A stretch of 64,000 bases of DNA from Streptomyces sp. SLBN-31 (GTDB lineage: Bacteria; Actinomycetota; Actinomycetes; Streptomycetales; Streptomycetaceae), in contig NZ_VFNC01000001.1 of the NCBI RefSeq assembly GCF_006715395.1, positions 2,852,001-2,916,000 on the forward strand. The letters run 5' to 3'. Shown one piece after another: positions 22,233 through 36,943 of this stretch. Under the pieces are notes generated by a model. It was not told the DNA's origin. It worked only from the letters and a program-made list of their open reading frames with translations, and made no database searches. The stretch's first letter is position 1; each line of letters opens with the position of its first letter. A program made the position numbers and the translations under genes.

Positions 22233-23681
22233 TCACGCTCCGGCGAGCCGGGCCTGGGCCTCGCGCCAGCGCGCGGTGTCGCCCCGCGGCTCGTAGCGGG
22301 TGAGCGGATGGGTACGGGTGAGCAGCCGCCGCCCGCTCGCCAGGTCGCCCACCAGCCCGTGGGCCCGGGCCTGGACCAGGACGTTGCCGAGCGCGGCCGC
22401 CTCGGTCGGGCCGGCCACCACGGGCAGCCCGCACGCGTCGGCGGTCAGCTGGCACAGCAGGGCGTTGCGGGTGCCGCCACCCACCACGTGCACGACGTCC
22501 ACGGGGTGACCGGCCAGCCGCTGGGCGTCCTCGACGGCCTTGCGGTGCGCGAGGGCGAGCGAGTCGAGGATGCAGCGCGTGATCTCGGCGGGTGTTTCGG
22601 GCACCGGCTGCCCAGAGGCCCGGCACGCGTCGGCGATCCGCTCCGGCATACGGCCCGGCGCCAGGAACGCCGCGTCGCCCGCGTCCACCACCGACCGCAG
22701 CGCCGGCACCTTCGCCGCCGCCGGCAGCAGCGTGCCCAACTCCGGTTCGCCCCAGGCCCGTACGCACTCCTGGAGCAGCCACAGCCCCATGATGTTGCGC
22801 AGGTAGCGGACCGTGCCGTCCAGGCCGAGCTCGTTGGTGAAGTTGGCGGTTCGGCTCTCCTCACTCAGCACCGGCGCGTCCAGCTCCAGACCCGCCAGCG
22901 ACCAGGTGCCGGTGCAGATATAGGCGAACCGCTCCCCGTCGGCCGGCACGGCGGCCACGGCGGACGCCGTGTCGTGCGACCCGACCGCCGTCACGGGCAC
23001 CGGCCCGCGCAGCCCGGTCTCCTCCAGCACCTCCGGCCGCAGCACGCCCGCCGGATCGCCCGGCCGCCGCAGCGGCGCGAACAGCGCGAGGTCGATGCCC
23101 AGCCGGGAGGCGGTGTCGTACGACCACTCGCGGGTGCGCGGGTCGATCAGCTGGGTCGTCGAGGCGTTGGTCAGCTCAGTGCCCTGCTCGCCCGTCAGCC
23201 AGTACGAGAGCAGGTCGGGAATGAGCAACAGCCGCTTCGCGGCACCCAGTTGGGCCGAGTCCCGGGCGGCGACCAGCTGGTACAGGGTGTTGAAGGGCGC
23301 GTACTGCAACCCGGTCGCCGCGTACAACCGGTCGGCGGGCATGGTCGCCCACACCTTCTCCGCGACGCCCTCGGTGCGGGAGTCCCGGTAGTGCACGGGG
23401 TTGCCGAGCAGCGCCCCGTCGGCATCCAGCAGCCCGTAGTCCACCGCCCAGCTGTCGAGGCCGACCGAGTCGACCTGCCCCGCCGTCCGCAGTCCGTCCA
23501 GCACACCCCCGTACAGGGCGAGCACGTCCCAGCGCAGGCCCTCCGGAACGCGCACCGGCCGGTTCGCGAACCGGTGCGCCTCGGTGAGTTCCAGGCTGCC
23601 GGGGCCGACGCGGCCGACCATGACGCGTCCGCTGGACGCGCCGAGGTCGACCGCGGCGTACGACTTCACGAGCGCGCTCAC
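22233..23681 (-). CDS. rhaB: Rhamnulokinase
   Basis: A 482-residue FGGY-family sugar kinase that phosphorylates L-rhamnulose to rhamnulose-1-phosphate (EC 2.7.1.5). The N-terminus has the phosphate-1 motif AAVDLGASSGRVMVGRV; other blocks are GLDSWAVDYGLLD, GSHDTASAVAAVP with the catalytic Asp, YICTGTWSLAGLEL, and the adenosine motif HVVGGGTRNALLCQ. Ala-Ser-Ser-Gly in the first motif is typical of RhaB. Its GTG start overlaps the stop of the aldolase/dehydrogenase gene by 4 bp. Confidence 0.95.
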   Translation of the reverse strand: MSALVKSYAAVDLGASSGRVMVGRVGPGSLELTEAHRFANRPVRVPEGLRWDVLALYGGVLDGLRTAGQVDSVGLDSWAVDYGLLDADGALLGNPVHYRDSRTEGVAEKVWATMPADRLYAATGLQYAPFNTLYQLVAARDSAQLGAAKRLLLIPDLLSYWLTGEQGTELTNASTTQLIDPRTREWSYDTASRLGIDLALFAPLRRPGDPAGVLRPEVLEETGLRGPVPVTAVGSHDTASAVAAVPADGERFAYICTGTWSLAGLELDAPVLSEESRTANFTNELGLDGTVRYLRNIMGLWLLQECVRAWGEPELGTLLPAAAKVPALRSVVDAGDAAFLAPGRMPERIADACRASGQPVPETPAEITRCILDSLALAHRKAVEDAQRLAGHPVDVVHVVGGGTRNALLCQLTADACGLPVVAGPTEAAALGNVLVQARAHGLVGDLASGRRLLTRTHPLTRYEPRGDTARWREAQARLAGA

Positions 23682-25717
23682 CGCAGGAAGGCGGCCGCGA
23701 CGCCGGCGTCGACCGGGACGTGCAGCCCGGTGGTGTGGGTCAACTCCCCACCGGTCAGCGCGAACACGGCGTTGGCCACGTGCTCGGGCAGCACCTCGCG
23801 CTTGAGGATGGTCCGCTGCGCGTAGAACTCGCCCAGCTTCTCCTCCGGCACCCCGTACACGGCCGCGCGCTGTGCGCCCCAGCCGCCCGCGAAGATCCCC
23901 GAACCGCGCACCACACCGTCCGGGTTGACCCCGTTGACGCGGATGCCGTGCTCGCCCAACTCGGCTGCCAGCAGCCGTACTTGATGCGCCTGGTCGGCCT
24001 TGGTGGCGGAGTAGGCGATGTTGTTGGGCCCGGCGAACACGGCGTTCTTGGAAGCGATGTAGACGATGTCGCCGCCCAGCTCCTGCGCGGTCATCACCCG
24101 GGCCGCCTCCCGCGAGACCAGGAAGGAACCGCGGGCCATGATGTCGTGCTGCAGGTCCCAGTCCTTCGCCGACGTCTCCAGCAGCGGCTTGGAGATGGAG
24201 ATACCGGCGTTGTTGACGACCAGGTCGACCCCGCCGAAGGCGAGGACTGCCGCCTTGAACGCCTCGGCGATCTGCTCCTCGGACGTGACGTCGACGCTCA
24301 CGGCGACGGACTTGTCCGGCCCGCCCAGCTCCTCCGCCACCTGGGCGGCGTTGTCCACGTTCAGGTCCGCGACCACCACGCAGGCACCCTCGGCGACCAG
24401 CCGCTGCGCGATCGCCTTCCCGATGCCGCTGCCCGCGCCCGTCACCAGCGCCACCCGCGTCGCCAGCGGCTTCGGCGCGGGCATCCGCTGGAGCTTGGCC
24501 TCTTCCAACGCCCAGTACTCGATGCGGAACTTCTCCGACTCCTCGATGGGCGCGTACGTCGACACGGCCTCGGCCCCGCGCATCACGTTGATGGCGTTGA
24601 CGTAGAACTCACCGGCCACCCGGGCCGTCTGCTTGTCCTTGCCGAAGGAGAACATGCCGACCCCCGGCACCAGCACGATCGCCGGGTCCGCGCCGCGCAT
24701 GGCGGGGGAGTCGGGCAGGGCGTGCCGCCGGTAATAGGCGGCGTACTCCTCGCGGTACTCGGCGTGCAGCTCCTTCAGCCGGGCGACGGCCTCCTCCAGC
24801 GGGGCGGCCGGCGGCAGGTCGAGGACGAGCGGACGCACCTTGGTCCGCAGGAAGTGGTCCGGGCAGGAGGTGCCCAGCGCGGCCAGCCGCGGGTGCTCGG
24901 CGCGCGCCAGGAACTCCAGCACGGTCTCGGAGTCGTCGAAGTGCCCGACCTGCGGCTTGTCCTGGGAGGCGATGGCCCGGACGTACGGCGCGAGAGCCGC
25001 GGCCCGCTCACGACGCTCCGCGGGCTCCAACGCCGCGTATCCCTCGATCACCGGCCCGAAGGGCTCGGGCCTGCCCCTCTCCGCCAAGAACGCCTCGGCG
25101 GTGCGGATGATGTGCAGCGAGTTGCGCTCGCACGCCTCCGAGGTGTCGCCCCACGCCGTGATCCCATGCCCGCCCAGCACACAGCCGATGGCCTGCGGGT
25201 TCGCCTCCTTGACCGCTGCGATGTCCAGCCCCAGCTGGAAACCGGGCCGCCGCCACGGCACCCACACCACCGTGTCGCCGAAGCACTCGGCGGTCAGCTT
25301 CTCCCCGTCGGCGGCGCAGGCGAGCGCGATCCCGGAGTCGGGGTGCAGATGGTCGACGTGCGCGGCCTCCACGAGCCCGTGCATGGCCGTGTCGATGGAC
25401 GGGGCGGCCCCGCCCTTGCCGTGCAGGCAGTAGTCGAACGCGGCGACCATCTCGTCCTCGCGCTCCACGCCCGGGTAGACGCCCTTCAGCGCCCGCAGCC
25501 GGTCCAGCCGCAGGACAGCCAGTCCGGCCCCGGTGAGCGTGCCGAGGTCGCCACCGGACCCCTTGACCCACATCAGCTCGACGTCACCGCCGGTCACGGG
25601 GTCGGTGTCGGTGCCCTTGGCGGAGGCGTTGCCGCCGGCGTAGTTGGTGTTGCGGGGATCGGAGCCGAGCCGATGGGAGCGGGCCAGGAGGGCGGCGGCT
25701 TCGGGGTGCGGTGCCAT
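23678..25717 (-). CDS. Bifunctional rhamnulose-1-phosphate aldolase / L-lactaldehyde dehydrogenase
   Basis: A 679-residue fusion. The first 400 or so residues are a class II aldolase domain (NYAGGNASAKG; HVDHLHPDSGIALAC with zinc-ligand His; GGHGITAWGDT) that splits rhamnulose-1-phosphate into DHAP and L-lactaldehyde. The last 260 are an SDR domain (TGAGSGIGKAIAQRL, NNAGISIS, catalytic YSATKAD) that would oxidise lactaldehyde to L-lactate. The same fusion is called RhaEW in bacteria such as Bacillus subtilis. The operon position between rhaI and rhaB, with lutABC downstream, fits this path. Confidence 0.93.
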   Translation of the reverse strand: MAPHPEAAALLARSHRLGSDPRNTNYAGGNASAKGTDTDPVTGGDVELMWVKGSGGDLGTLTGAGLAVLRLDRLRALKGVYPGVEREDEMVAAFDYCLHGKGGAAPSIDTAMHGLVEAAHVDHLHPDSGIALACAADGEKLTAECFGDTVVWVPWRRPGFQLGLDIAAVKEANPQAIGCVLGGHGITAWGDTSEACERNSLHIIRTAEAFLAERGRPEPFGPVIEGYAALEPAERRERAAALAPYVRAIASQDKPQVGHFDDSETVLEFLARAEHPRLAALGTSCPDHFLRTKVRPLVLDLPPAAPLEEAVARLKELHAEYREEYAAYYRRHALPDSPAMRGADPAIVLVPGVGMFSFGKDKQTARVAGEFYVNAINVMRGAEAVSTYAPIEESEKFRIEYWALEEAKLQRMPAPKPLATRVALVTGAGSGIGKAIAQRLVAEGACVVVADLNVDNAAQVAEELGGPDKSVAVSVDVTSEEQIAEAFKAAVLAFGGVDLVVNNAGISISKPLLETSAKDWDLQHDIMARGSFLVSREAARVMTAQELGGDIVYIASKNAVFAGPNNIAYSATKADQAHQVRLLAAELGEHGIRVNGVNPDGVVRGSGIFAGGWGAQRAAVYGVPEEKLGEFYAQRTILKREVLPEHVANAVFALTGGELTHTTGLHVPVDAGVAAAFLR

Positions 25718-25771: not shown

Positions 25772-26932
25772 TCAGGCGCCCCAGCCGGCTTGGGTGCCGC
25801 CGACGCGCTCGGCGATGATCCGCTGCTGCCATCCGGAGCGGTGGTAGGCGGCGATGGGGTCGGGGTCGAGGCCCATTTCCTGGCGGGTGTCGGCGAGGAG
25901 GGGGCGGACGTCGGTGTTGTAGGCGTCCATGAGGACGGCGTTGGCGGCCAGGACGTCACCGTCGCGCTGGGCGGCGGCGAGGGCGTCGCGGTCGACGAGG
26001 AGTGCCTTGGCGGTGGCTTCCTGGACGTTCATCACGGAGCGGATGATGGCGGGGATCTTGGCTTCGATGTTGTGGCACTGGTCGAGCATGAAGGCCACGT
26101 CGGAGGTGTAGCCGCCGCCGCGGATGACCTCGTACATGATGCGGAAGAGCTGGAAGGGGTCGGCGGCGCCGACCATGAGGTCGTCGTCGGCGTAGAAGCG
26201 GGAGTTGAAGTCGAACCCGCCGAGCTTGTTCTCCCGCAGCAGGGTGGCGACGATGAACTCGATGTTGGTGCCCGGTGCGTGGTGTCCGGTGTCGACGACG
26301 ACCTGGGCCTTCTCGCCGAGCTTGAGGCAGTGGGCGTAGGCGGTGCCCCAGTCGGGGACGTCGGTGGTGTAAAAGGCCGGCTCGAAGAACTTGTACTCCA
26401 GCAGCATCCGCTGGTTCTCGCCGAGCCGCTGGTAGACCTCGGCCAAGCCTTCGGCGAGGCGGTCCTGGCGGGCGCGGATGTCGTCCTGGCCGGGATAGTT
26501 GGTGCCGTCGGCGAACCACAGTTTCAGGTCGTGTGAGCCGGTGGCGTCCATGATGTCGACGCATTCGAGCAGGTGATCCAGCGCCTTGCGGCGCACGGCG
26601 GCGTCGGGGTGGCAGATGCTGCCCAGTTTGTAGGCGTCGTCCTGGAAGGTGTTGGAGTTGATCGCCCCCAGTTTCACCCCGTGGTCCTGGGCGAACTTCG
26701 CCAGCGCGGCGTAGTCCTCGACCCTGTCCCACGGGATGTGCAACGCCACCGTCGGCGCCACACCCGTGACGGCATGCACCTGGGCCGCGTCGGCCAGCTT
26801 CTCCTGCGGCGTGCGGGGAACTCCCTGCTGGGCGAACACCTTGAAACGGGTCCCCGAGTTCCCGTACGCCCACGACGGCGTCTCGACTGCCTGGGTCTTC
26901 AGCGCGGTCTTCACCGCGGCGAGCTCGGTCAC
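25772..26932 (-). CDS. rhaI: L-rhamnose isomerase (Pseudomonas/actinobacterial type)
   Basis: A 386-residue TIM-barrel isomerase (EC 5.3.1.14) turning L-rhamnose into L-rhamnulose. It belongs to the RhaI type seen in Pseudomonas stutzeri, not the E. coli RhaA type: SNTFQDDAYKLGSICHPD, LKLWFADGTNYPGQDD, LLEYKFFEPAFYTTDVPDWG, VVDTGHHAPGTNIEF and LGGFDFNSRFYADDDLMVG carry the metal-binding Glu, Asp and His residues. It is the first gene of the leftward operon. A promoter and LacI-type operator lie 50-100 bp upstream. Confidence 0.95.
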   Translation of the reverse strand: MTELAAVKTALKTQAVETPSWAYGNSGTRFKVFAQQGVPRTPQEKLADAAQVHAVTGVAPTVALHIPWDRVEDYAALAKFAQDHGVKLGAINSNTFQDDAYKLGSICHPDAAVRRKALDHLLECVDIMDATGSHDLKLWFADGTNYPGQDDIRARQDRLAEGLAEVYQRLGENQRMLLEYKFFEPAFYTTDVPDWGTAYAHCLKLGEKAQVVVDTGHHAPGTNIEFIVATLLRENKLGGFDFNSRFYADDDLMVGAADPFQLFRIMYEVIRGGGYTSDVAFMLDQCHNIEAKIPAIIRSVMNVQEATAKALLVDRDALAAAQRDGDVLAANAVLMDAYNTDVRPLLADTRQEMGLDPDPIAAYHRSGWQQRIIAERVGGTQAGWGA

Positions 26933-26983: not shown

Positions 26984-27031
26984 TGAATCGATTCAGGAAG
27001 CGAAGCTTAGAACGCCCCGTAGGGGTGTCAA
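26984..27031 (-). promoter_or_regulatory. rhaI operon promoter and LacI-type operator
   Basis: Leftward -35 TTGACA (27031-27026), 16 bp, -10 TAAGCT (27009-27004). TGAATCGATTCA (26984-26995), a perfect 12-bp palindrome, begins just downstream of the expected transcription start. The LacI protein at 33754 is the obvious candidate repressor. Confidence 0.7.
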
Positions 27032-27116: not shown

Positions 27117-27172
27117 TTGACGTGACATGGCCCACGCGCCTAACGTCCCGGCAACCAAGTTGAAACCTTTCA
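27117..27172 (+). promoter_or_regulatory. Transport operon promoter and LacI-type operator
   Basis: Rightward -35 TTGACG (27117-27122), 18 bp, -10 TAACGT (27141-27146), and TGAAA-CC-TTTCA (27161-27172) just after the expected start. The position mirrors that of the operator on the rhaI side. Confidence 0.6.
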
Positions 27173-27215: not shown

Positions 27216-28733
27216 ATGACCCACCCGTCCGACACGGGTCCGGCCCCGGTGCTGGCGCTCGAGGACATTTCGAAGTCCTTCGGGGCCGTGCGTGCCCTGC
27301 GGGACGTGTCCCTGGAGCTGTTCCCCGGAGAGGTGCACGCCCTCGCCGGAGAGAACGGCGCGGGCAAGTCGACCCTGATCAAGACGCTCGCCGGCGTCCA
27401 CCGACCGGACGCCGGCCGGGTGCTGCTCGACGGTGAGCCCGTCGTCTTCCACGGACCCGGTGACGCACGCGACGCGGGCATCGCCGTCATCTACCAGGAG
27501 CCCACGCTCTTTCCCGACCTTTCGATCGCCGAGAACATCTTCATGGGCCGCCAGCCCCGGCGCGCCCTGGGCCGGATCGACCACAAGGCCACGCACACCG
27601 CGACGCTGCGGCTGATGAAGCGGCTCGGCGTCGAACTCGACCCCGACCGCCCAGCGCGCGGCCTGTCCATCGCCGACCAGCAGATCGTGGAGATCGCCAA
27701 GGCGCTCTCCTTCGACGCCCGCGTCCTGATCATGGACGAGCCGACGGCCGCCCTGACCGGCAGCGAGGTGGCCCGGCTCTTCGGCGTCGTGCGCACCCTG
27801 CGCGAACAGGGCGCCGCCGTGCTGTTCATCTCGCACCGGCTGGAGGAGATCTTCGAGATCTGCCAGCGGGTCACCACCCTGCGCGACGGCGCCTGGATCG
27901 CCAGCGAGCCGATCGAGGGGATGACGGAGGACGACCTCGTCCGGCGCATGGTCGGTCGCGACCTCGAGGAGCTGTACCCCAAGCAGGACGTCAAGCCCGG
28001 TCAAGTCGCGCTGAGCGTACGGCGGTTGACTCGGGAGGGTGTCTTCACCGACGTCTCCTTCGACGTCCGGCACGGCGAGATCGTCGGCCTCGCCGGACTC
28101 GTCGGCGCCGGCCGCACCGAGGTGGCCCGGGCCGTCTTCGGCATCGACCGCTGGGATGCCGGCGAGGTCGAGGTCCAGGGCCGCAGGCTCACCAACGGCG
28201 CCCCGTCCACCGCGATGGCCGCCGGGCTCGCCCTCGTCCCTGAGGACCGGCGCGCCCAGGGCCTGGTGATGGGCATGTCCATCGAGCGCAACATCGGCCT
28301 CACCGGACTCCGTACGACCGTCCGGGCCGGCCTGATGGACCGTGGCGCCGAACGCGACCGGTCCCTGGACTGGGCGGTCAAGCTCCAGGTGAAGTACGCC
28401 CGGATCGCCGACGCCGTCTCGACCCTGTCCGGCGGCAACCAGCAGAAGGTCGTCCTGGCCAAGTGGCTCGCCACCGGCCCCAAGGTACTGATCGTCGACG
28501 AGCCCACGCGGGGCATCGACGTCGGCACCAAGGCCGAGGTGCACCGGCTGCTCAGCCGGCTGGCCGCCGACGGCGTCGCCGTTCTGATGATCTCCTCCGA
28601 CCTGCCCGAGATCCTCGGCATGGCCGACCGCGTGCTCGTGATGCACGAGGGCCGGCTGACCGCCGAGATCCCACGCGCCGAAGCCACCGAGGAAACCGTG
28701 ATGGCCGCAGCCACCGGGAGGGCCGCCGCATGA
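27216..28733 (+). CDS. L-rhamnose ABC transporter, double ATPase
   Basis: A 505-residue sugar-type ABC ATPase with two nucleotide-binding halves. The first has a full Walker A ([10 protein letters not shown]) and Walker B ([10 protein letters not shown]); in the second, the P-loop is degenerate ([10 protein letters not shown]), as is normal in the RbsA/XylG/RhaT group, but the signature LSGGNQQK and Walker [12 protein letters not shown] are kept. It energises import through the two permeases that follow. ATG with GAGGAG upstream; the stop overlaps the next start by 4 bp (ATGA). Confidence 0.95.
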
Positions 28734-29770
28734 CGGTGACCACTCCCAACGAGACCCCCGTCGCCGAGGTGCCCAAGTCCAGCGGCACCCGGCTCGTCGA
28801 CCGCGTCTTCAAGATGCGCGAGCTCGCCATCCTCGTCGTCTTCCTGGTGATGATCGGCATCACCCAGGCCGGCAACAGCGAGTTCCTGTCCGAGCAGGGC
28901 ATCAAGGACCTGCTGCTGAACGCCACCATCCTGGTGCTGGTCGCCACCGGCCAGTCCCTGGTGGTGATCACGCGGAACGTCGACCTGTCCGTCGGCTCGA
29001 CCCTCGGCATCTGCGCCTTCGCGGCCGGCGACTACCTGCACGGCGGCGGCAGTTCGGTGATCGCGATCGGGCTGGCGGTCCTGATGGGCATCGGGTTCGG
29101 CCTGCTCAACGGCCTGCTCGTCAGCCTCGGCCAAGTGCCCGCGCTCGTCGTCACCCTCGGCACGCTGTACATCATCCGCGGCATCGACTCCATCTGGGTC
29201 GGCTCCCGCCAGATCACGGCGGCCGACCTGCCCGGCGGCTTCGTCGACTTCGGCTCCGGCGGCATCTCCGCGGTGCCGTACCTCGCGCTGATCGCGCTGG
29301 CCGTGCTGGTGGCGACGGCGTACTACCTCAAGCACTTCGGCAGCGGACGCGAGCTGTACGCGCTCGGCTCCAACCCGGAGGCGGCCCGGCTCGCCGGCAT
29401 CCCCGTCCGCAAGCGGATCCTGGCCGCGTACACCTTCTGCGGCGGACTCGCGGGCCTGGCCGGCGCCATGTACCTGGCCCGGTTCGGCAACGTCGACTCC
29501 GGGACCGGCACCGGCTACGAACTCACCGTCGTCAGCGCGGTCGTGGTCGGCGGCGTGGTCTTCACCGGAGGCTCCGGCAGCGTGTACGGGGCCGCGCTCG
29601 GCGCCCTGCTGCTGACCTCCATCAACAGCGTGCTGCCCGCCCTCGGCGTCAGCTCGGTCTGGGTGCTCGCGATCAACGGCATCCTGCTCATCCTCGCCAT
29701 CGCGGTCGACCGGATCGTCGCGCTGCGCGTGGCCTCCGCCCTGAAGAAGAGGAACGCCCGCAATGCCTGA
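28730..29770 (+). CDS. L-rhamnose ABC transporter permease 1
   Basis: A 346-residue BPD_transp_2-type permease with about nine membrane segments. Typical blocks are [35 protein letters not shown], the cytoplasmic EAA-like loop [17 protein letters not shown] and [15 protein letters not shown]. It has a 45-residue hydrophilic N-terminus. It overlaps the ATPase stop by 4 bp and the next permease start by 8 bp, so the three are translated as a unit. Confidence 0.93.
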
Positions 29771-30755
29771 GTCCCTGACGCGCGCGGTCCGCTGGGACAC
29801 GGTCGTCGGCGCGCTGCTCATCCTGCTGCTGCTGCTGTCGTTCGGCATCGTCGACGGGTTCGGCAACGCCCTCAACCTGTCGTTCCTGATCGGCAACACC
29901 CTGCCCATCGCGCTGATCGCCCTGCCGATGACCCTGCTGGTCGTCGCCGGCGAGATCGACCTGTCCGTCGCCTCCACCGCCGGCCTGTCCGGCGCGGTGA
30001 TGGGCAAGCTGTGGAACGACGGCATGGCGATCGAGACGATCATCCCGCTGTGCCTGCTGCTCGGTGTCGTGTGCGGGCTGATCAACGGCCTCCTTGTGAC
30101 CCGGCTCGGACTGCCCTCCCTCGCCGTCACCATCGGCACCCTCGCCGCCTACCGGGGCATCGCGCAGATCGTGCTCGGCTCCGACGCGGTGACCGACTTC
30201 CCCACGCAGTACCTGGACTTCGCGTCCGGACGGCTCGGGAACACCTTCCTCCCGCAGGCCTTCCTGCCCTTCCTCGTCCTGCTCGCCATCGCCGTCGTGG
30301 TGCTCCACGCCACGCCGTTCGGACGGTCGCTGTTCGCGATCGGCGCGAGCGAGGAGGCGGCGCGGTTCGCCGGCATCCGGGTCAAGCGGCACAAGCTGAT
30401 CCTGTTCACGGTGACCGGCCTGATGGCCTCGCTCACCGGGATCTTCTGGGCGCTGCACTACGCCAGCGCCCGTTACGACAACGCCACCGGACTCGAACTG
30501 TCCGTCGTCGCCGCGGTGCTGCTCGGCGGCATCGATTTCGACGGCGGCCGGGGCACGCTCGGCGGCGCGATCGCGGGGGTCTTCCTCCTCGGAGCGCTGC
30601 AGAACGTGATGAGCCTGCTGAACATCTCCGCCCAGTCGCAGATCGTCGTCACCGGCGTCCTGCTCGTCATCTCCGTGCTCGGCCCCCGGGTCGCACGGCA
30701 AATCTCCGTCGCGAGGGCGGGACGCAGAGCCGCCGCCTCGACTCCGACGTCGTAA
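29763..30755 (+). CDS. L-rhamnose ABC transporter permease 2
   Basis: A 330-residue permease of the same family: VVAGEIDLSVASTAGLSG, LAVTIGTLAAYRGIAQIVLG, the loop FAIGASEEAARFAGIRV, and VVAAVLLGGIDFDGGRGTLG. It forms the channel together with permease 1, matching the two-permease rhamnose systems of Rhizobium and Streptomyces. The binding-protein gene follows 29 bp later. Confidence 0.93.
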   Translation: MPESLTRAVRWDTVVGALLILLLLLSFGIVDGFGNALNLSFLIGNTLPIALIALPMTLLVVAGEIDLSVASTAGLSGAVMGKLWNDGMAIETIIPLCLLLGVVCGLINGLLVTRLGLPSLAVTIGTLAAYRGIAQIVLGSDAVTDFPTQYLDFASGRLGNTFLPQAFLPFLVLLAIAVVVLHATPFGRSLFAIGASEEAARFAGIRVKRHKLILFTVTGLMASLTGIFWALHYASARYDNATGLELSVVAAVLLGGIDFDGGRGTLGGAIAGVFLLGALQNVMSLLNISAQSQIVVTGVLLVISVLGPRVARQISVARAGRRAAASTPTS

Positions 30756-30784: not shown

Positions 30785-31864
30785 ATGCGCAAGTCATCCG
30801 TCCGTCGTACCTGCGCGGCCCTCGCCGCCGGCACCTCGCTCGCCCTCGCGCTGACCGCCTGCGGCGGCACCACCAAGAACAACTCCGGCAGCGACAACGC
30901 CTCCGCGTCCTCGACCGCGAAGGCCGACCCGAACGCCGCGCTGAAGAAGGGCCTGACCGTCGGCTTCCTGCCCAAGCAGGTCAACAACCCGTACTTCACC
31001 TCCGCCGACAAGGGCGGCGAGAAGGCGCTGACCGAACTCGGCAGCAAGTACAAGGAGGTCGGCCCCTCCAGCGCCACCGACACCGCCGGGCAGGTCTCCT
31101 ACGTCAACACGCTCACCCAGCAGCAGGTGAACGCGATGGCCGTCTCCGCTCAGGACCCGGGCGCCCTGTGCACCGCGCTGAAGCAGGCCATGAAGAACAA
31201 CATCAAGGTCGTCACCTACGACTCCGACACCAAGCCCGACTGCCGCAACGCCTTCGTCTCGCAGGCCTCCGCCGAGGACCTCGGCCGCACCGAGGTGCAG
31301 CTGCTCGCCCAGCAGATCGGCTACAAGGGCGAGATCGCGATCCTGTCCGCCGCCCAGACCGCCACGAACCAGAACACCTGGATCGGGTACATGAAGGACG
31401 AGCTGAAGGACCCGAAGTACAAGAACGTCAAGCTGGTGAAGATCGCCTACGGCAACGACGACGCCCAGGCCTCCTTCCAGCAGACCCAGGGCCTGCTCCA
31501 GCAGTACCCGAACCTGAAGGGGATCATCTCCCCGACCACCGTCGGCATCAAGGCCGCCGCCCAGTACCTCTCCGGCTCCAAGTACAAGGGCAAGGTCAAG
31601 CTGACCGGCCTGGGCACCCCCAACGACATGCGCAAGTACGTCAAGAACGGCACCGTCGAGGGCTTCGAGCTGTGGGACCCGGCCAAGCTCGGCGACCTGG
31701 CCGCCCGCACCGCCGTCGCGCTGTCCTCCGGCCAGATCACCGGCAAGGAGGGCGAGACCTTCAAGGCCGGCTCGACCACGTACACCATCGGCAAGGACGG
31801 CGTGATCACCCTCGGCAAGCCGACCGTGTTCACCGCCAAGAACATCGACCAGTTCAACTTCTGA
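30785..31864 (+). CDS. L-rhamnose-binding lipoprotein
   Basis: A 359-residue substrate-binding protein of the periplasmic-binding type 4 (RbsB-like) fold. It has a lipoprotein signal with lipobox LTAC and modified Cys26, followed by a Ser/Asn-rich tether. Core blocks are VGFLPKQVNNPYFTSADKGG, AMAVSAQDPGALCTALKQA and VTYDSDTKPDCRNAFVSQAS. It captures rhamnose at the outer face of the membrane for the permeases encoded just upstream. Its RBS AAAGGAAA lies before ATG 30785. Confidence 0.94.
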   Translation: MRKSSVRRTCAALAAGTSLALALTACGGTTKNNSGSDNASASSTAKADPNAALKKGLTVGFLPKQVNNPYFTSADKGGEKALTELGSKYKEVGPSSATDTAGQVSYVNTLTQQQVNAMAVSAQDPGALCTALKQAMKNNIKVVTYDSDTKPDCRNAFVSQASAEDLGRTEVQLLAQQIGYKGEIAILSAAQTATNQNTWIGYMKDELKDPKYKNVKLVKIAYGNDDAQASFQQTQGLLQQYPNLKGIISPTTVGIKAAAQYLSGSKYKGKVKLTGLGTPNDMRKYVKNGTVEGFELWDPAKLGDLAARTAVALSSGQITGKEGETFKAGSTTYTIGKDGVITLGKPTVFTAKNIDQFNF

Positions 31865-31897: not shown

Positions 31898-32218
31898 ATG
31901 CAGCGCGTCTGTTTCCTCCTCAAGGTCCGTGAGGACCGGCTCGCCGAGTACCGCGAACGCCACGCCGCCGTGTGGCCGGAGATGCGCGAGGCGCTCTCCG
32001 CCACCGGCTGGCACAACTACTCCCTCTTCCTGCGCGACGACGGCCTGCTCGTCGGCTACCTGGAGACCGAGGACTTCGACGCCGCGCTCGCCGGCATGGA
32101 GGCCACCGAGGTCAACGCCCGCTGGCAGGCGGAGATGGGGCCGTTCTTCGAGTCGCTGGACGGCGCCCGGCCCGACGAGGCCATGAAACCGCTCACCGAA
32201 GTGTTCCACCTCGCCTGA
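31898..32218 (+). CDS. rhaM: L-rhamnose mutarotase
   Basis: A 106-residue dimeric alpha-beta barrel protein that interconverts the alpha and beta anomers of L-rhamnose (EC 5.1.3.32), supplying the anomer used by the isomerase. Family blocks are FLLKVREDRLAEYRERHAAV with the catalytic-region His, WPEMREAL, WHNYSLFLRDDGLLVGYLET and the MGPFFES turn. It lies 33 bp after the binding-protein gene in the transport operon. Confidence 0.95.
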   Translation: MQRVCFLLKVREDRLAEYRERHAAVWPEMREALSATGWHNYSLFLRDDGLLVGYLETEDFDAALAGMEATEVNARWQAEMGPFFESLDGARPDEAMKPLTEVFHLA

Positions 32219-32258: not shown

Positions 32259-33671
32259 ATGAGAAGACGCACCGTGCTCGCGACCGCCATACTCGCGGCC
32301 GTGGCAACACCGGGCATCGCGCGGGCCGCCGACCCCGGCCCCGCCGTGAGCAAGAAGGGCACCACCCGACTCGACTCCCAGGCGATCTTCTTCGTCTCCT
32401 ACGACGGTCTGGTGAACAACAACTCGTTCCAGAAGAACGGCCTGTTGACGTACAAGGGCTACCAGTACGCCGTCTGGTACACCGCGACCGGCAACGCCGT
32501 GGTCGGCCGGCGGGCACTGAGCGCGAGCAGCTGGTCGACGGTCACGCTGTCCCACGTCCTCAAGAGCAGCGACTCGCACAACGTCATCTCCATGGGCGTC
32601 TCCAAGGTCGACGGCCGGCTGCACCTCAACATGGACTCGCACAGCGACGGCTACTTCTACGTGAAGTCCGTCGCCGGGCTGGTGGACAACCCCGCCACCA
32701 CCGCCTGGACCTCGTCCGTGTTCGGCGCCGTCCAGACGTCCATGGACGGCCTCGCCCTCACCTCGCAGTTCACCTACCCGCAGTTCGTCTCCACCCCCGA
32801 GGGCAGGCTCCAGCTCAGCTACCGGGTCGGCATCTCCGGCAACGGCCGCAACGCCATCGCCGAGTACGACGGTTCGAGTTGGAAAGCCCTGGGGGAGTGG
32901 TCGAGCTCCACGGGCACGTACACCAGCTCGCACGGCTCCTCCACCGCCCGCAACATGTACCTGCACGGCATCGACTACGACGCGGGCGGCCGGCTGCACT
33001 CCTTCTTCACCTGGCGCGAGCAGAACGCGGCGGTGATGTGCAACAGCGGCGGCATCACCAACCACGACACCGGTTACGTCTACTCGACCGACCGCGGCCG
33101 CACCTGGCGCAACGACGCGGGCGCACTGGTCGCCACCACCGGCACCTCGGACACCGTCGCCGTCACCGACGCCGGCCTGGTCGTCGACTCCCTCAACCCC
33201 GACCACTCCCTGATGAACCAGGAGAGCCAGTGGACGGACTCCACCGGCCTCCCGCACGCGATCATCAGCTACGTCCCCGGCCGCTTCGGCCAGTGCACCA
33301 CCAACTACGTCGCCGACCGCACCGCCAACGGCCGCGCCTTCCACGTCCGCAAGAACGCGTCGGGCACCTGGACCAAGACCGAGATCCCGGTCCCCCTGAA
33401 CTCCAGCCAGCGCACCAAGCTGGTCCTGGACAAGTACGACAACGCCTACGCGGTCTTCCCCTTCGGCCGGATCGCCGCCGCGTCGAAGGCCTCCGGGTAC
33501 ACCGACTGGACCCTGCTCTACGACGGCAGCGACCTGAACGCCTTCGGCGAGGTCGTCATCGACGAGACGCGGGTGAAGTACGACAACGTCCTGTCGTTCA
33601 TGTACCAGGAGAAGTCGAGCGGTACGACCCCCTCGGCACTCCATGTCGCCGACTTCGCACTGCCCGCGTGA
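32259..33671 (+). CDS. Secreted BNR-type beta-propeller protein, candidate rhamnoglycan lyase
   Basis: A 470-residue protein with a twin-arginine-like signal (MRRRTVLATAILAAVATPG, cleavage after ARA, residue 23) and then a BNR_4-type repeat domain expected to form a seven-bladed propeller. Conserved residues cluster in SDSHNVISMGVS (His107-Asn108) and LHLNMDSHSDGYFYVKS (His122, His128); the pattern of His residues recalls PL24/PL25/PL42 lyases, which cleave rhamnose-uronate polymers such as ulvan or gum arabic side chains. Location inside the rhamnose operon, 40 bp after the mutarotase, supports a role in releasing rhamnose-containing sugars. The lyase activity is inference; it may instead be a hydrolase or binding protein. 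Confidence 0.75.
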   Translation: MRRRTVLATAILAAVATPGIARAADPGPAVSKKGTTRLDSQAIFFVSYDGLVNNNSFQKNGLLTYKGYQYAVWYTATGNAVVGRRALSASSWSTVTLSHVLKSSDSHNVISMGVSKVDGRLHLNMDSHSDGYFYVKSVAGLVDNPATTAWTSSVFGAVQTSMDGLALTSQFTYPQFVSTPEGRLQLSYRVGISGNGRNAIAEYDGSSWKALGEWSSSTGTYTSSHGSSTARNMYLHGIDYDAGGRLHSFFTWREQNAAVMCNSGGITNHDTGYVYSTDRGRTWRNDAGALVATTGTSDTVAVTDAGLVVDSLNPDHSLMNQESQWTDSTGLPHAIISYVPGRFGQCTTNYVADRTANGRAFHVRKNASGTWTKTEIPVPLNSSQRTKLVLDKYDNAYAVFPFGRIAAASKASGYTDWTLLYDGSDLNAFGEVVIDETRVKYDNVLSFMYQEKSSGTTPSALHVADFALPA

Positions 33672-33753: not shown

Positions 33754-34779
33754 ATGGCCCAGTCGGTGGGTATCAAGGACGTCGCCCGTGCCGCCGGAGT
33801 CTCCGTCGGCACGGTGTCGAACGTGATCAACCGTCCGGACACGGTCGCCACGGAGACCCGGGCACGGGTGCAGTCCGCCATAGACCGGCTCGGCTACGTC
33901 CGCAGCGAGTCCGCGCGTCAGCTGCGCGCGGGCCGCAGCCGGATCATGGGGCTGCTCGTCCTCGACATGGGCAACCCGTTCTTCGTCGACGTCGCCCGCG
34001 GTGCCGAGCGCGCCGCGCGCGACGCCGGGCTCGGCGTGATGGTCTGCAACAGCGCGCAGAGCGCCGGCGAGGAGGCCGAGTACCTGTCGCTCTTCGCCGA
34101 GCAGCGGGTGCGGGGCGTGCTGCTGACCCCCGCCGACGCGACCGGCCGGAACATCGAGACCTTCCGGCGGCACAACATCCCCTTCGTCCTCGTCGACCGG
34201 GTCGCCGAGGGCACCACCGAGTGCTCGGTCTCCGTCGACGACGTGGCGGGCGGCGCCTTGGCCGTGCGCCACCTCGTCGACGCCGGGCACCGCTCCATCG
34301 CGTACGTCAGCGGCCCGCCCGGTCTCAACCAGGTCCGCGACCGCCGCACGGGCGCCCTGAACGCCCTCGCCGAGGCCGGTCTCGGCCCGGACAGTCTGCG
34401 CGAGCTGCCCACCGAGCGGCTCGACGTGGCCGCCGGCCGCGACGCGGGCGCCCGCCTGCTCGGCCTCGCCGACCGCCCCACCGCCGTCTTCTGCGCCAAC
34501 GACCTGCTCGCCCTCGGCGTCCTGCAGGCCATGTACGCGGCCGGCATAACCGTCCCCGACGACCTCGCCATCGTCGGCTACGACGACATCGAGTTCGCGG
34601 CCGCGGCGGCCGTCCCCCTCACCTCCGTACGGCAGCCCGCCGTCACCATGGGCGCCATGGCCGCGGAGCTGCTGCTGGAGGAGACGGAGGCCGAGACCGG
34701 CACGACCCGGCACGAACACCGACGGGTCGTGCTCCAGCCGGAGCTCGTGGTACGGCGCTCCAGCCTCTCGGCCCGCTGA
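33754..34779 (+). CDS. LacI family regulator of the rhamnose locus
   Basis: A 341-residue repressor: helix-turn-helix GIKDVARAAGVSVGTVSNVI at residues 6-25, hinge helix around residue 55 (SARQLRAGRS), then a sugar-binding domain (GLLVLDMGNPFFVDVARGAE; VFCANDLLALGVLQAM; IVGYDDIEFAAAAAVPLTSV). As the only regulator in the locus it probably binds TGAATCGATTCA before rhaI and TGAAACCTTTCA before the transporter, and is released by rhamnose or rhamnulose. An RBS (CTGGAGG) precedes ATG 33754. It lies 82 bp after the propeller gene, in the same direction. Confidence 0.9.
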   Translation: MAQSVGIKDVARAAGVSVGTVSNVINRPDTVATETRARVQSAIDRLGYVRSESARQLRAGRSRIMGLLVLDMGNPFFVDVARGAERAARDAGLGVMVCNSAQSAGEEAEYLSLFAEQRVRGVLLTPADATGRNIETFRRHNIPFVLVDRVAEGTTECSVSVDDVAGGALAVRHLVDAGHRSIAYVSGPPGLNQVRDRRTGALNALAEAGLGPDSLRELPTERLDVAAGRDAGARLLGLADRPTAVFCANDLLALGVLQAMYAAGITVPDDLAIVGYDDIEFAAAAAVPLTSVRQPAVTMGAMAAELLLEETEAETGTTRHEHRRVVLQPELVVRRSSLSAR

Positions 34780-34879
34780 TCGTCCGTTCAGTAAATTTCA
34801 TGATCCCGGAGGTCGGCACGGGCCCGGTCATGTGGTGAAGTGGGACGCGGCCAGAAGACCGTCCGTCCCGGGAGACCCG

Positions 34880-36181
34880 TTGACCGCCACGTACCGCCAG
34901 CCCGGCGTCGTCCTCACCGACCGCCGCTTCACCGTGCCCCTCGACCACGACGACCCGGCCGGGGAGACGATCGAGCTCTACGCCCGTGAGGTCGTCGCGA
35001 GCGAGAAGGCGGACCGGAACCTGCCGTGGCTGGTCTACCTCCAGGGCGGCCCGGGCTTCGGCGCCAACCGGTTCGTCGGCAGGCCCTCCTGGCTCGGCCG
35101 CGCCCTGAAGGAGTACCGCGTCCTCCTCCTCGACCAGCGCGGCACCGGACACTCCACCCCCGCCAACCGGCAGACCCTGCCGCTGCGCGGCGGCCCCGCG
35201 GAACAGGCCGCCTACCTCACCCACTTCCGCGCCGACTCGATCGTCCGCGACTGCGAGGCCATCCGCCCGGCGGTCACCGGCGGCGCCACCTGGACCGTGC
35301 TCGGCCAGAGCTTCGGCGGCTTCTGCGCCGTCAACTACCTCTCCCGCGCCCCCGAAGGTCTCACCGCGGCCCTGATCACCGGCGGCCTGCCCTCCCTCGA
35401 CGCGCACGCCGACGACGTCTACCGCGCCGCCTACCCCCGCGTCGAGCGCAAGGTCGCCGCGCACTACGCGCGCTATCCGCAGGACGTGGAGCGCGCCCGG
35501 CGCATCGCCGACCACCTCCTCACCCACGACGTGACCCTGCCCAACGGCTACCGGCTCACCGCCGAGGCCTTCCAGTCCCTCGGCATCCTCCTCGGCGGCG
35601 GCGAGGGCAGCCACCGCCTCCACCACCTCCTGGAGCACGCCTTCGTGCGCACCTCGCACGGCGCGGAACTCTCCGACGCCTTCCAGGAGGACGTACAGGC
35701 CCTGCTGTCGTACGCCGGTCACCCCCTCTACGCCCTCGTCCACGAGGCGTGCTACGCCCAGGACGAGCGCCCCACCGACTGGTCGGCCGAGCGCGTGCGC
35801 GGCGAGTTCCCGCAGTTCGACGCGGCCAAGGCGCTCGCCGGCGACGGCCCGCTGCTGTTCACCGGTGAGTCGATCCACCCCTGGATGTTCGACTGCGACC
35901 CGGCGCTGCGGCCCCTTCGGGAGACGGCCGACCTGCTCGCACGGCGCACGGACTGGCGCCCCCTGTACGACCCCGCCCGGCTCGCCGCCAACGAGGTGCC
36001 GGTCGCGGCCGCCGTCTACCACGACGACATGTACGTCGACACGGCCCACGCGCTTCGGACGGCCCGCACGATCCGGGGCCTGCGCACCTGGGTGACCGAC
36101 GAGTTCGAGCACGACGGCGTTCGCGCGGGCGGACAGCGCGTGCTGGACAGGCTCCTCGCCCTCGTCCGCGACGAGGCGTGA
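34880..36181 (+). CDS. Alpha/beta hydrolase, proline-iminopeptidase-like
   Basis: A 433-residue alpha/beta hydrolase of peptidase family S33. The oxyanion region reads YLQGGPGFGANRF, followed by LLLDQRGTGHSTP; the nucleophile Ser is in LGQSFGGFCAVNY, and an acid/His pair is plausible in FTGESIHPW and DEFEHDGVR. Such proteins release N-terminal Pro or similar residues from peptides, though some are esterases. I take TTG 34880, with GGGAGA five bases upstream and the family N-terminus (RFTVPLDHDD) shortly after; a GTG at 34832 is the alternative. It has no partner gene. Confidence 0.82.
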   Translation: MTATYRQPGVVLTDRRFTVPLDHDDPAGETIELYAREVVASEKADRNLPWLVYLQGGPGFGANRFVGRPSWLGRALKEYRVLLLDQRGTGHSTPANRQTLPLRGGPAEQAAYLTHFRADSIVRDCEAIRPAVTGGATWTVLGQSFGGFCAVNYLSRAPEGLTAALITGGLPSLDAHADDVYRAAYPRVERKVAAHYARYPQDVERARRIADHLLTHDVTLPNGYRLTAEAFQSLGILLGGGEGSHRLHHLLEHAFVRTSHGAELSDAFQEDVQALLSYAGHPLYALVHEACYAQDERPTDWSAERVRGEFPQFDAAKALAGDGPLLFTGESIHPWMFDCDPALRPLRETADLLARRTDWRPLYDPARLAANEVPVAAAVYHDDMYVDTAHALRTARTIRGLRTWVTDEFEHDGVRAGGQRVLDRLLALVRDEA

Positions 36182-36187
36182 CCCGGC

Positions 36188-36193
36188 TAGTCT
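36188..36193 (+). promoter_or_regulatory. -10 box of a leaderless promoter (PIG-L gene)
   Basis: TAGTCT six bases before ATG 36200 and directly after the stop of the previous gene. No clear -35 box is seen. Confidence 0.45.
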
Positions 36194-36199
36194 GCGCGC

Positions 36200-36943
36200 A
36201 TGACCGAGCCGATGATCACCCAGCTCCAGCCCCTGCCCGGCGACTGGCGGCGCGCGCTCGCCGTCGTGGCACACCCCGACGACCTCGAGTACGGCTGCTC
36301 CGCGGCGATCGCCGCCTGGACCGACGAGGGCCGTGAGGTCGCCTATGTGCTGGCGACCCGCGGCGAGGCGGGCATCGACACGCTGGCGCCCGCCGAGTGC
36401 GGGCCGCTGCGGGAACGCGAGCAGCGGGCGAGCGCCGCCCTCGTGGGGGTGTCGGAGGTGGAGTTCCTCGACCACCGGGACGGCGTGGTCGAGTACGGCG
36501 TCGCACTTCGCCGGGACATCGCCGCCGCGATCCGTCGGCACCGGCCCGAGCTGGTGATCACGCTCAACCACCGGGACACCTGGGGTGGCGTCGCCTGGAA
36601 CACCCCGGACCACGTGGCGGTCGGGCGGGCCACCCTGGACGCGGCCGCGGACGCCGGCAACCGGTGGATCTTCCCCGAGCTCACCGAGCGGGGACTGGAG
36701 CCCTGGGACGGCGTCCGCTGGGTCGCCGTCGCCGGTTCCGCCTCGCCCACGCACGCGGTCGACGCCACGGCCGGTCTGGAGCGGGCGGTGCGCTCACTGC
36801 TCGAACACCGCACCTACATCGAGGCGTTGACCGACGAGGACCCGGAGACGTACGCCCGCGCCTTCCTGACGGAGAACGCCGAGCGGATGGCCGAGCGCTT
36901 CGGTGGCAGGCCGGCGGTGGCGTTCGAGGTGTTCGCCCGCTAG
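36200..36943 (+). CDS. PIG-L family deacetylase
   Basis: A 247-residue zinc-dependent LmbE/PIG-L fold enzyme. The metal site is in VVAHPDDLEYGCSAAI (His-Pro-Asp-Asp) with the third ligand His in TPDHVAVG. The family removes acetyl from N-acetylglucosamine-type sugars, as in mycothiol synthesis (MshB) or on glycosylated antibiotics. This copy is shorter than typical MshB and is not next to mycothiol genes. A leaderless promoter is likely. It converges on the DUF5999 gene with a 17-bp gap. Confidence 0.9.
   Translation: MTEPMITQLQPLPGDWRRALAVVAHPDDLEYGCSAAIAAWTDEGREVAYVLATRGEAGIDTLAPAECGPLREREQRASAALVGVSEVEFLDHRDGVVEYGVALRRDIAAAIRRHRPELVITLNHRDTWGGVAWNTPDHVAVGRATLDAAADAGNRWIFPELTERGLEPWDGVRWVAVAGSASPTHAVDATAGLERAVRSLLEHRTYIEALTDEDPETYARAFLTENAERMAERFGGRPAVAFEVFAR

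Follow-up and report, generated by a model that had tools for sequence, protein, structure and literature searches.

We analysed a stretch of 64,000 nucleotides from Streptomyces sp. SLBN-31 (the window), in which the gene of interest is located at 32259..33671 on the plus strand. It encodes a BNR_4 propeller of polysaccharide lyase (PL) family 42 type, a predicted L-rhamnose-alpha-1,4-D-glucuronate (L-Rha-alpha-1,4-GlcA) lyase according to its sequence, profile, AlphaFold2 fold and site residues. The open reading frame (ORF) of 470 amino acid residues starts with ATG and was confirmed as real, and its product matched the Pfam family BNR_4 (PF15892) with an E value of 9.5e-79 and 265 bits, at a cut-off of 27.3. 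By eye, the amino terminus MRRRTVLATAILAAVATPGIARA-AD was recognised as a putative export signal of residues 1-23 (32259..32327, plus strand) with a Tat-like RR start and an Ala-Arg-Ala cleavage motif, and some close homologues carry the name 'Tat pathway signal sequence domain protein'. The database homologues reach up to 96% identity and are currently named 'BNR repeat-containing protein' or 'putative BNR repeat neuraminidase'. A sialidase, as suggested by the latter name, was rejected, the solved sialidases being matched over about 35 residues only with E values of at least 0.03.

The gene is part of a rhamnose locus. On the minus strand are encoded a rhamnulokinase-like protein (22233..23681; TIGR02627, 471.6 bits, below the cut-off of 527.95), a bifunctional rhamnulose-1-phosphate aldolase/short-chain dehydrogenase (23678..25717; TIGR02632, 1112.9 bits, cut-off 567.75) and the L-rhamnose isomerase RhaI (25772..26932; TIGR02635, 676.2 bits, cut-off 531.35). 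The divergent operon on the plus strand starts with a sugar ATP-binding cassette (ABC) importer, consisting of the ATPase (27216..28733; best NCBIfam matches RbsA/AraG, below cut-off), two permeases (28730..29770, with PF02653 and NCBIfam matches below cut-off; 29763..30755, AraH-like in NCBIfam, below cut-off) and the rhamnose-binding protein RhaS (30785..31864, start chosen by hand; TIGR02637, 469.5 bits, cut-off 342.25). It continues through rhaM, the L-rhamnose mutarotase gene (31898..32218; PF05336 over its cut-off, TIGR02625 with 65.1 below the cut-off of 99.6), and the propeller gene, after which a LacI-family regulator, the candidate RhaR, is encoded on the same strand (33754..34779; PF00356, PF13377). 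A preliminary description of this DNA had placed a secreted BNR propeller in the rhamnose operon, between the mutarotase and the LacI gene, and this was confirmed. Sequence patterns identified two LacI-type candidate operators flanking the divergent rha promoter, TGAATCGATTCA at 26984..26995 on the rhaI side and TGAAACCTTTCA at 27161..27172 (plus strand) shortly before the ABC-rhaM-lyase operon. A promoter and terminator search returned no promoters (0.3 expected) and three terminators (2.5 expected).

When the solved structures were searched, the nearest relative of the protein, by sequence and by profile, was FoRham1, the L-rhamnose-alpha-1,4-D-glucuronate lyase of Fusarium oxysporum (7esk, 7esl, 7esn and further entries). 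FoRham1 is the founder of PL42 and the closest known system; the identity is 34% over the alignment (129/376). In the profile search PL42 reached an E value of 6e-47 compared to 4.5e-10 for PL24, which by sequence alone gave 0.11, and PL25 had no match at E 1 in either search. The fold of the AlphaFold2 model was closest to the seven-bladed propeller of FoRham1, ahead of PL24 and PL25, whose fold Z scores were both below that of PL42 (a match of the fold as a whole and no count of blades). The PL24 (LOR_107, Uly1) and PL25 (PLSV_3936) ulvan lyases share the propeller fold and the His-His-Asp motif with the window protein. The former glycoside hydrolase (GH) family 145 proteins, which are now in PL42 (BT3686, BACINT_00347, BACCELL_00856), are less similar to it than FoRham1. 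The earlier expectation that the rhamnose operon contains a propeller with the rhamnose-uronate lyase fold common to PL24, PL25 and PL42 was borne out, with PL42 the nearest and the other two further away. The proposal of a new rhamnoglycan lyase was not, since sequence and fold are nearest to a known family, and we assign the protein to PL42 as a new member in an informative setting and not to a new lyase class. In published work, FoRham1 showed no more than traces of activity when ulvan or larch arabinogalactan was the substrate, and its sequence was 3-5% identical to three proteins of PL27, another family with the same activity (PMC8377490).

The active site of FoRham1 was then compared residue by residue. 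The numbering of its PDB chain is that of the paper plus two, and this offset gave the named amino acid at all 15 residues looked up. In the published account, His85 acts as base and acid, Asp83 bridges the two histidines, and Arg166, His105 and Tyr150 neutralise the carboxylate (PMC10951650). These residues are identical in the window protein (D105, H107, H128, Y173 and the neutraliser R189 for Asp83, His85, His105, Tyr150 and Arg166), and so are Ser170 (S193), Tyr202 (Y234), Arg220 (R253), Asn275 (N320), Gln276 (Q321), Arg331 (R385) and Glu381 (E431). Of the site residues, 12 of 13 are identical (Pro223 excluded), against a background of 121 identical positions in 418 (hypergeometric P 2e-6). 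The single miss is Tyr26 of the rhamnose subsite, where the other four residues (Asn275, Gln276, Arg331, Glu381) are kept. Among 83 actinobacterial rows, ten of the 12 kept residues never vary and the remaining two are found in 82; the His-His-Asp motif and the Arg neutraliser (D105, H107, H128, R189), which the alignment would place on the anterior face, are present in all 83. The column of Tyr26 contains Phe in 74 rows and Tyr in nine. The preliminary description had pointed to His107-Asn108, His122 and His128 as a lyase-like cluster. All four residues are at these positions and occur in every row and in FoRham1; H107 and H128 correspond to the catalytic H85 and H105, but H122 does not appear among the site residues in the published text available to us.

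Besides Phe57 in place of Tyr26 and the unkept Pro223, the window protein differs from the fungal FoRham1 in being bacterial, in its location inside a rhamnose operon and in two extra Cys-bearing insertions. In the actinobacterial proteins these carry Cys261 (78/83 rows) and Cys346 (80/83 rows). The first insertion follows R253-E254, R253 being a residue of subsite +1, and in the second Cys346 is 25 residues past Gln321. A disulphide between Cys261 and Cys346 that ties the insertions together near the aglycone side is plausible, although the AlphaFold2 model has low confidence in both Cys loops. Three distant actinobacterial relatives with about 35% identity lack both cysteines. A distant actinobacterial PL42-like protein of about 35% identity was also seen in a cluster that encodes a LysR regulator and an ABC importer of the oligopeptide type (L102:3331-12073). 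Where BT3686 has its posterior catalytic His48, a tyrosine is present both in the window protein (Tyr65) and in FoRham1 (Tyr34). In this column His occurs in 24 of the 83 rows, and some members of the clade might carry both the anterior and the posterior site. What is new, as read from the sequences, is the actinobacterial PL42 clade with its two Cys-bearing insertions and its wiring into the rhamnose operon.

We consider it likely, from sequence and model, that the protein is a secreted PL42-type exo-lyase that decaps Rha-alpha-1,4-GlcA, and that the locus serves rhamnose harvesting without depolymerisation of a polysaccharide. This reading follows from the mode of action reported for PL42, which is exo and decapping, so that terminal L-rhamnose is freed and an unsaturated uronate is left. 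Outside the cell, subsite -1 (N320, Q321 and R385 held by E431) would bind a terminal alpha-L-rhamnose that is linked 1,4 to D-glucuronate in subsite +1 (R189, H128, Y173, Y234, R253), as it is where side chains end in gum arabic and other type II arabinogalactans. The carboxylate would be neutralised by R189, H128 and Y173, and H107, tuned via D105, would take the C5 proton and return a proton to the leaving O4 in a beta-elimination. L-rhamnose would be set free, and delta-4,5-GlcA would remain at the end of the side chain; as the C4-O4 bond of GlcA is broken, the rhamnose should leave as the alpha anomer. The RhaS-type importer would take up the monosaccharide, and with its anomers interconverted by RhaM, degradation would proceed through RhaI, rhamnulokinase and the aldolase/dehydrogenase. 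RhaR would repress the divergent promoter via the two TGAAWCSWTTCA operators until rhamnose is present, and elsewhere in the genome it would exert the same control over rhamnosidases of GH78 and GH106 and over a cluster that encodes a transporter and a rhamnogalacturonan exolyase.

The preliminary description had envisaged a polysaccharide-utilisation system that cleaves outside, imports and degrades. This is probably wrong, because the characterised PL42 lyase removes a terminal rhamnose and the binding protein of the importer is of the L-rhamnose type. In addition, no match to PF07470, which we take to cover both GH88 and GH105, exceeded the cut-off in the genome; a single match below it fits GH76 better, and three control genomes were positive. 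This fits with the cap alone being taken, in a search limited to PF07470.

The operators extend beyond the locus. The rhaI gene and the ABC gene were both present in 16 of 20 other stretches, two of these from genomes without the lyase, and all 16 kept one site of each kind. In the genome of 9.47 Mb, the 12-mer TGAAWCSWTTCA was found no more than 6 times and a reversed control pattern not once. Four of the 6 sites are outside the rha promoter and mark one rhamnosidase each of GH106 and GH78 type, a solute-binding protein/PcRGLX cluster and a class II aldolase. In the cluster, the solute-binding protein is at the operator, and PcRGLX, a rhamnogalacturonan exolyase (PDB match E 3e-272), follows 2.6 kb on along the same strand. 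At the aldolase, a perfect TGAAACGTTTCA (C1:3245795) is located just upstream of a gene with a class II aldolase domain (PF00596; L148:4955-5779); this could add to the regulon or have arisen by chance. Five other complete genomes, hand-picked among those already analysed, contained 13 operator loci outside rha: six with GH78, one with GH106 (L254, confirmed by Pfam), five with the transporter/PcRGLX cluster and one with none of these. A regulon fit was seen for 12 of the 13, and for three of four in the own genome. A LacI-type RhaR of Actinomycetales was predicted in 2013 to co-regulate rhamnose uptake, catabolism and rhamnosidases (PMC3870299). The LacI regulator and the predicted rhamnosidase control are common to that regulon and the window locus, where the LacI gene and the palindromic site at rha and rhamnosidase promoters are both present. 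'BNR' occurs 0 times in the main text of that paper as available, and no PL42-type lyase is named there. By its sequence context, we regard the PL42 lyase as an addition to the RhaR regulon predicted earlier.

The distribution in Streptomyces was determined with a threshold of E 1e-20. A lyase match was present in 70 of 199 sampled genomes, the own included. For rhaM of the same type only strong matches were counted, which retained 108 of 112 other genomes; the four that had weak matches alone were dropped, as were weak second copies. It was present in all 69 other lyase-bearing genomes, and in 39 further ones without a lyase match. At 67 of 71 Streptomyces places outside the window, rhaM immediately precedes the lyase in the same orientation, the coordinate distance being 5 to 325, and two of the 67 are fragments of one broken copy; among the four exceptions one lies at a contig end and three are elsewhere. 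The order binding protein, rhaM, lyase, LacI was kept in all 29 foreign loci examined (L003-L031). Because rhaM also occurs without the lyase in 39 genomes, with short lyase remnants in two (L112, L113) of 12 examined, the lyase gene appears to be an optional component that was lost repeatedly from an otherwise conserved operon. Broken or remnant copies persist in the rha locus at G169:C15, G111:C17, L112 and L113. Plasmid carriage was also considered and rejected, with 10 records, two of them from Streptomyces. A gene of about 481 residues is located between lyase and LacI in two Streptomyces rha loci (L044:6158-7603, L045:6340-7785); it had a match below cut-off to PF11762 (L-arabinose-isomerase C-terminal), and the L044 copy gave no NCBIfam match at 1e-20. 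In the window, the two genes after LacI (34832-36943), kept in several relatives, appear alpha/beta-hydrolase-like and PIG-L-like by eye and gave no NCBIfam match at 1e-20.

Named genomes were also scanned, which gave 271 relatives, and the best 80 were analysed; these are not independent of each other, and the search patterns favour this clade. Gene calls in the fetched loci were crude, and unlabelled ORFs had no annotation. A rha operon surrounded the lyase in 23 of the 80 loci, after removal of L213 (31% rhaD match only) from 24: in 12 from Streptomyces with the rhaM-lyase order and in 11 others. In the latter, from Prauserella, Saccharomonospora, Kibdelosporangium, Actinophytocola, Actinomadura, Rhodococcus and a metagenome bin, the lyase follows rhaI, and rhaD comes after it within 300 bases in six, at about 3.3 kb in two and outside the examined stretch in three. 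On a quick tree of 86 rows the rha label changed 6 times, at least 3 of these forced by well-supported branches, compared to 22.7 times in shuffles.

In 29 of the 80 loci, the lyase is within 5 kb of candidate arabinogalactan enzymes. This number includes L186 (a 27% GH43 match), L167, L171 and L179, which were themselves the sources of the search references, and L194, which possibly has the same locus source as G099, the origin of the GH30 reference. A GH30 protein is present in 21 of them, seven being 63-100% identical to the reference and the rest about 30%. The reference matched the solved 'secreted endo-beta-1,6-galactanase' 24td with an E value of 4.4e-217, and one of the 30% proteins that was checked also had 24td as its best solved match (E 4e-39). 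The crude gene calls give an overlap of 4 bases between the GH30 ORF and the lyase ORF of G099. The other eight loci have GH5-ricin, GH43-ricin, GH59 or, once, a weak GH43 match alone. GH43-ricin had 3vsf as its best solved match and also matched the galactan 1,3-beta-galactosidase 7bys and the exo-beta-1,3-galactanase 5flw. Since other copies of the lyase adjoin relatives of a solved endo-beta-1,6-galactanase, type II arabinogalactan is suggested as the substrate.

Several observations weigh against a lyase that decaps arabinogalactan for the rhamnose operon. Tyr26, which binds O3 of the rhamnose in FoRham1, is replaced by Phe57, and Pro223, a main-chain contact at +1, is unconserved, Asn256 or a gap being aligned to it. 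S170 mutants of FoRham1 retained 1.4-89% activity, and conservation is therefore not informative at every residue. The aglycone may differ, because the insertions with Cys261 and Cys346 are near the +1 side and the model is poor there (mean predicted local distance difference test (pLDDT) score 52-59 in 251-270 and 341-350) and beside F57 (pLDDT below 50 at 45-56). The lyase match is found in only 69 of 198 other Streptomyces genomes, some matches being fragments, and 28 of the 80 loci have neither a rha nor an arabinogalactan context, their neighbours being only partly annotated. For the GH5-ricin neighbours, cellulases were the sole matches among the solved structures (E 4e-6), and their galactanase role is putative; some GH5 enzymes (GH5_16) are described as endo-beta-1,6-galactanases (PMC12751061). 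A GH79-type domain gave no match in a search that had no positive control. No exact operator was found in the 4 kb examined at a second GH78 gene of the own genome (L120), nor in the stretch examined around its GH30_2 gene (L150), and the operator locus L256 (a GH18 match below cut-off and an acyltransferase) and the own aldolase site fit the regulon unclearly. The GH30_2 gene is located away from the lyase, in a region (C2:1112000-1124000) that also contains a solute-binding protein gene, a permease-like ORF and a GH2 gene.

The same lyase chemistry could act on another terminal Rha-uronate instead of intact arabinogalactan, be it in a side chain of pectin, in an exopolysaccharide of bacteria or in a Rha-GlcA disaccharide that has already been released. 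The insertions beside the +1 residues, F57 and the lost Pro223 would allow for this, and FoRham1 itself prefers the free disaccharide (PMC8377490). A Streptomyces genome table puts PL42 under pectin (PMC11475409), and the predicted regulon contains a rhamnogalacturonan exolyase. However, relatives adjoin the GH30 nearest the solved endo-beta-1,6-galactanase and the GH43 with exo-beta-1,3-galactanases among its matches, and FoRham1 had undetectable activity on rhamnogalacturonan I oligosaccharides (PMC8377490), so we regard a different aglycone as rather unlikely.

Departures from the lyase chemistry or from the exo mode are much less probable. An endo-acting ulvan or rhamnan lyase like PL24 or PL25, the depolymerase of the preliminary description, is very unlikely with its weaker sequence and fold match, a RhaS-type importer and the PF07470 result. 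For BT3686, whose branch of PL42 is reported as hydrolase, a retaining alpha-L-rhamnosidase reaction via the posterior-face histidine has been described. The window protein belongs to the same family, the BT3686 model NF052497 is its sole NCBIfam match and the equivalent position is His in the 24 relatives mentioned. But the match reached only 101.6 at a cut-off of 700, Tyr65 takes the place of the histidine as in FoRham1, and the anterior lyase residues are complete except for Tyr26, which makes such a reaction extremely unlikely. A non-catalytic rhamnose-binding propeller, a lectin or sensor, would agree with the propeller lectins ranking next after the lyases in the fold comparison; with the kept site residues nearly invariant among the relatives, it is likewise extremely improbable.

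A broader reading, which we put forward tentatively and with slightly more doubt than belief, is that PL42 was recruited into actinomycete rhamnose operons more than once and at two places, after rhaM in Streptomyces and after rhaI elsewhere, to give an extracellular lyase in a single-sugar regulon. The cap sugar alone would be taken here, and sister copies in galactanase clusters would open arabinogalactan. The two Cys-linked loops would remodel the +1 pocket, and within PL42 the clade may form a subfamily that has an aglycone of its own.

The literature that we found on FoRham1 deals with that single fungal lyase, the available text of a review of arabinogalactan degradation does not mention PL42 (PMC8424115), and no experimental test of a Streptomyces PL42 was found in the literature searched, with most subscription papers outside the search. 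With the clade in 70 of the 199 sampled genomes, Streptomyces would contribute many bacterial enzymes for decapping gum arabic and plant arabinogalactan-proteins. A testable function would replace the uninformative BNR repeat and neuraminidase names. Taken together, the operators tie the lyase, GH78, GH106 and the rhamnogalacturonan exolyase into one predicted rhamnose-scavenging regulon.
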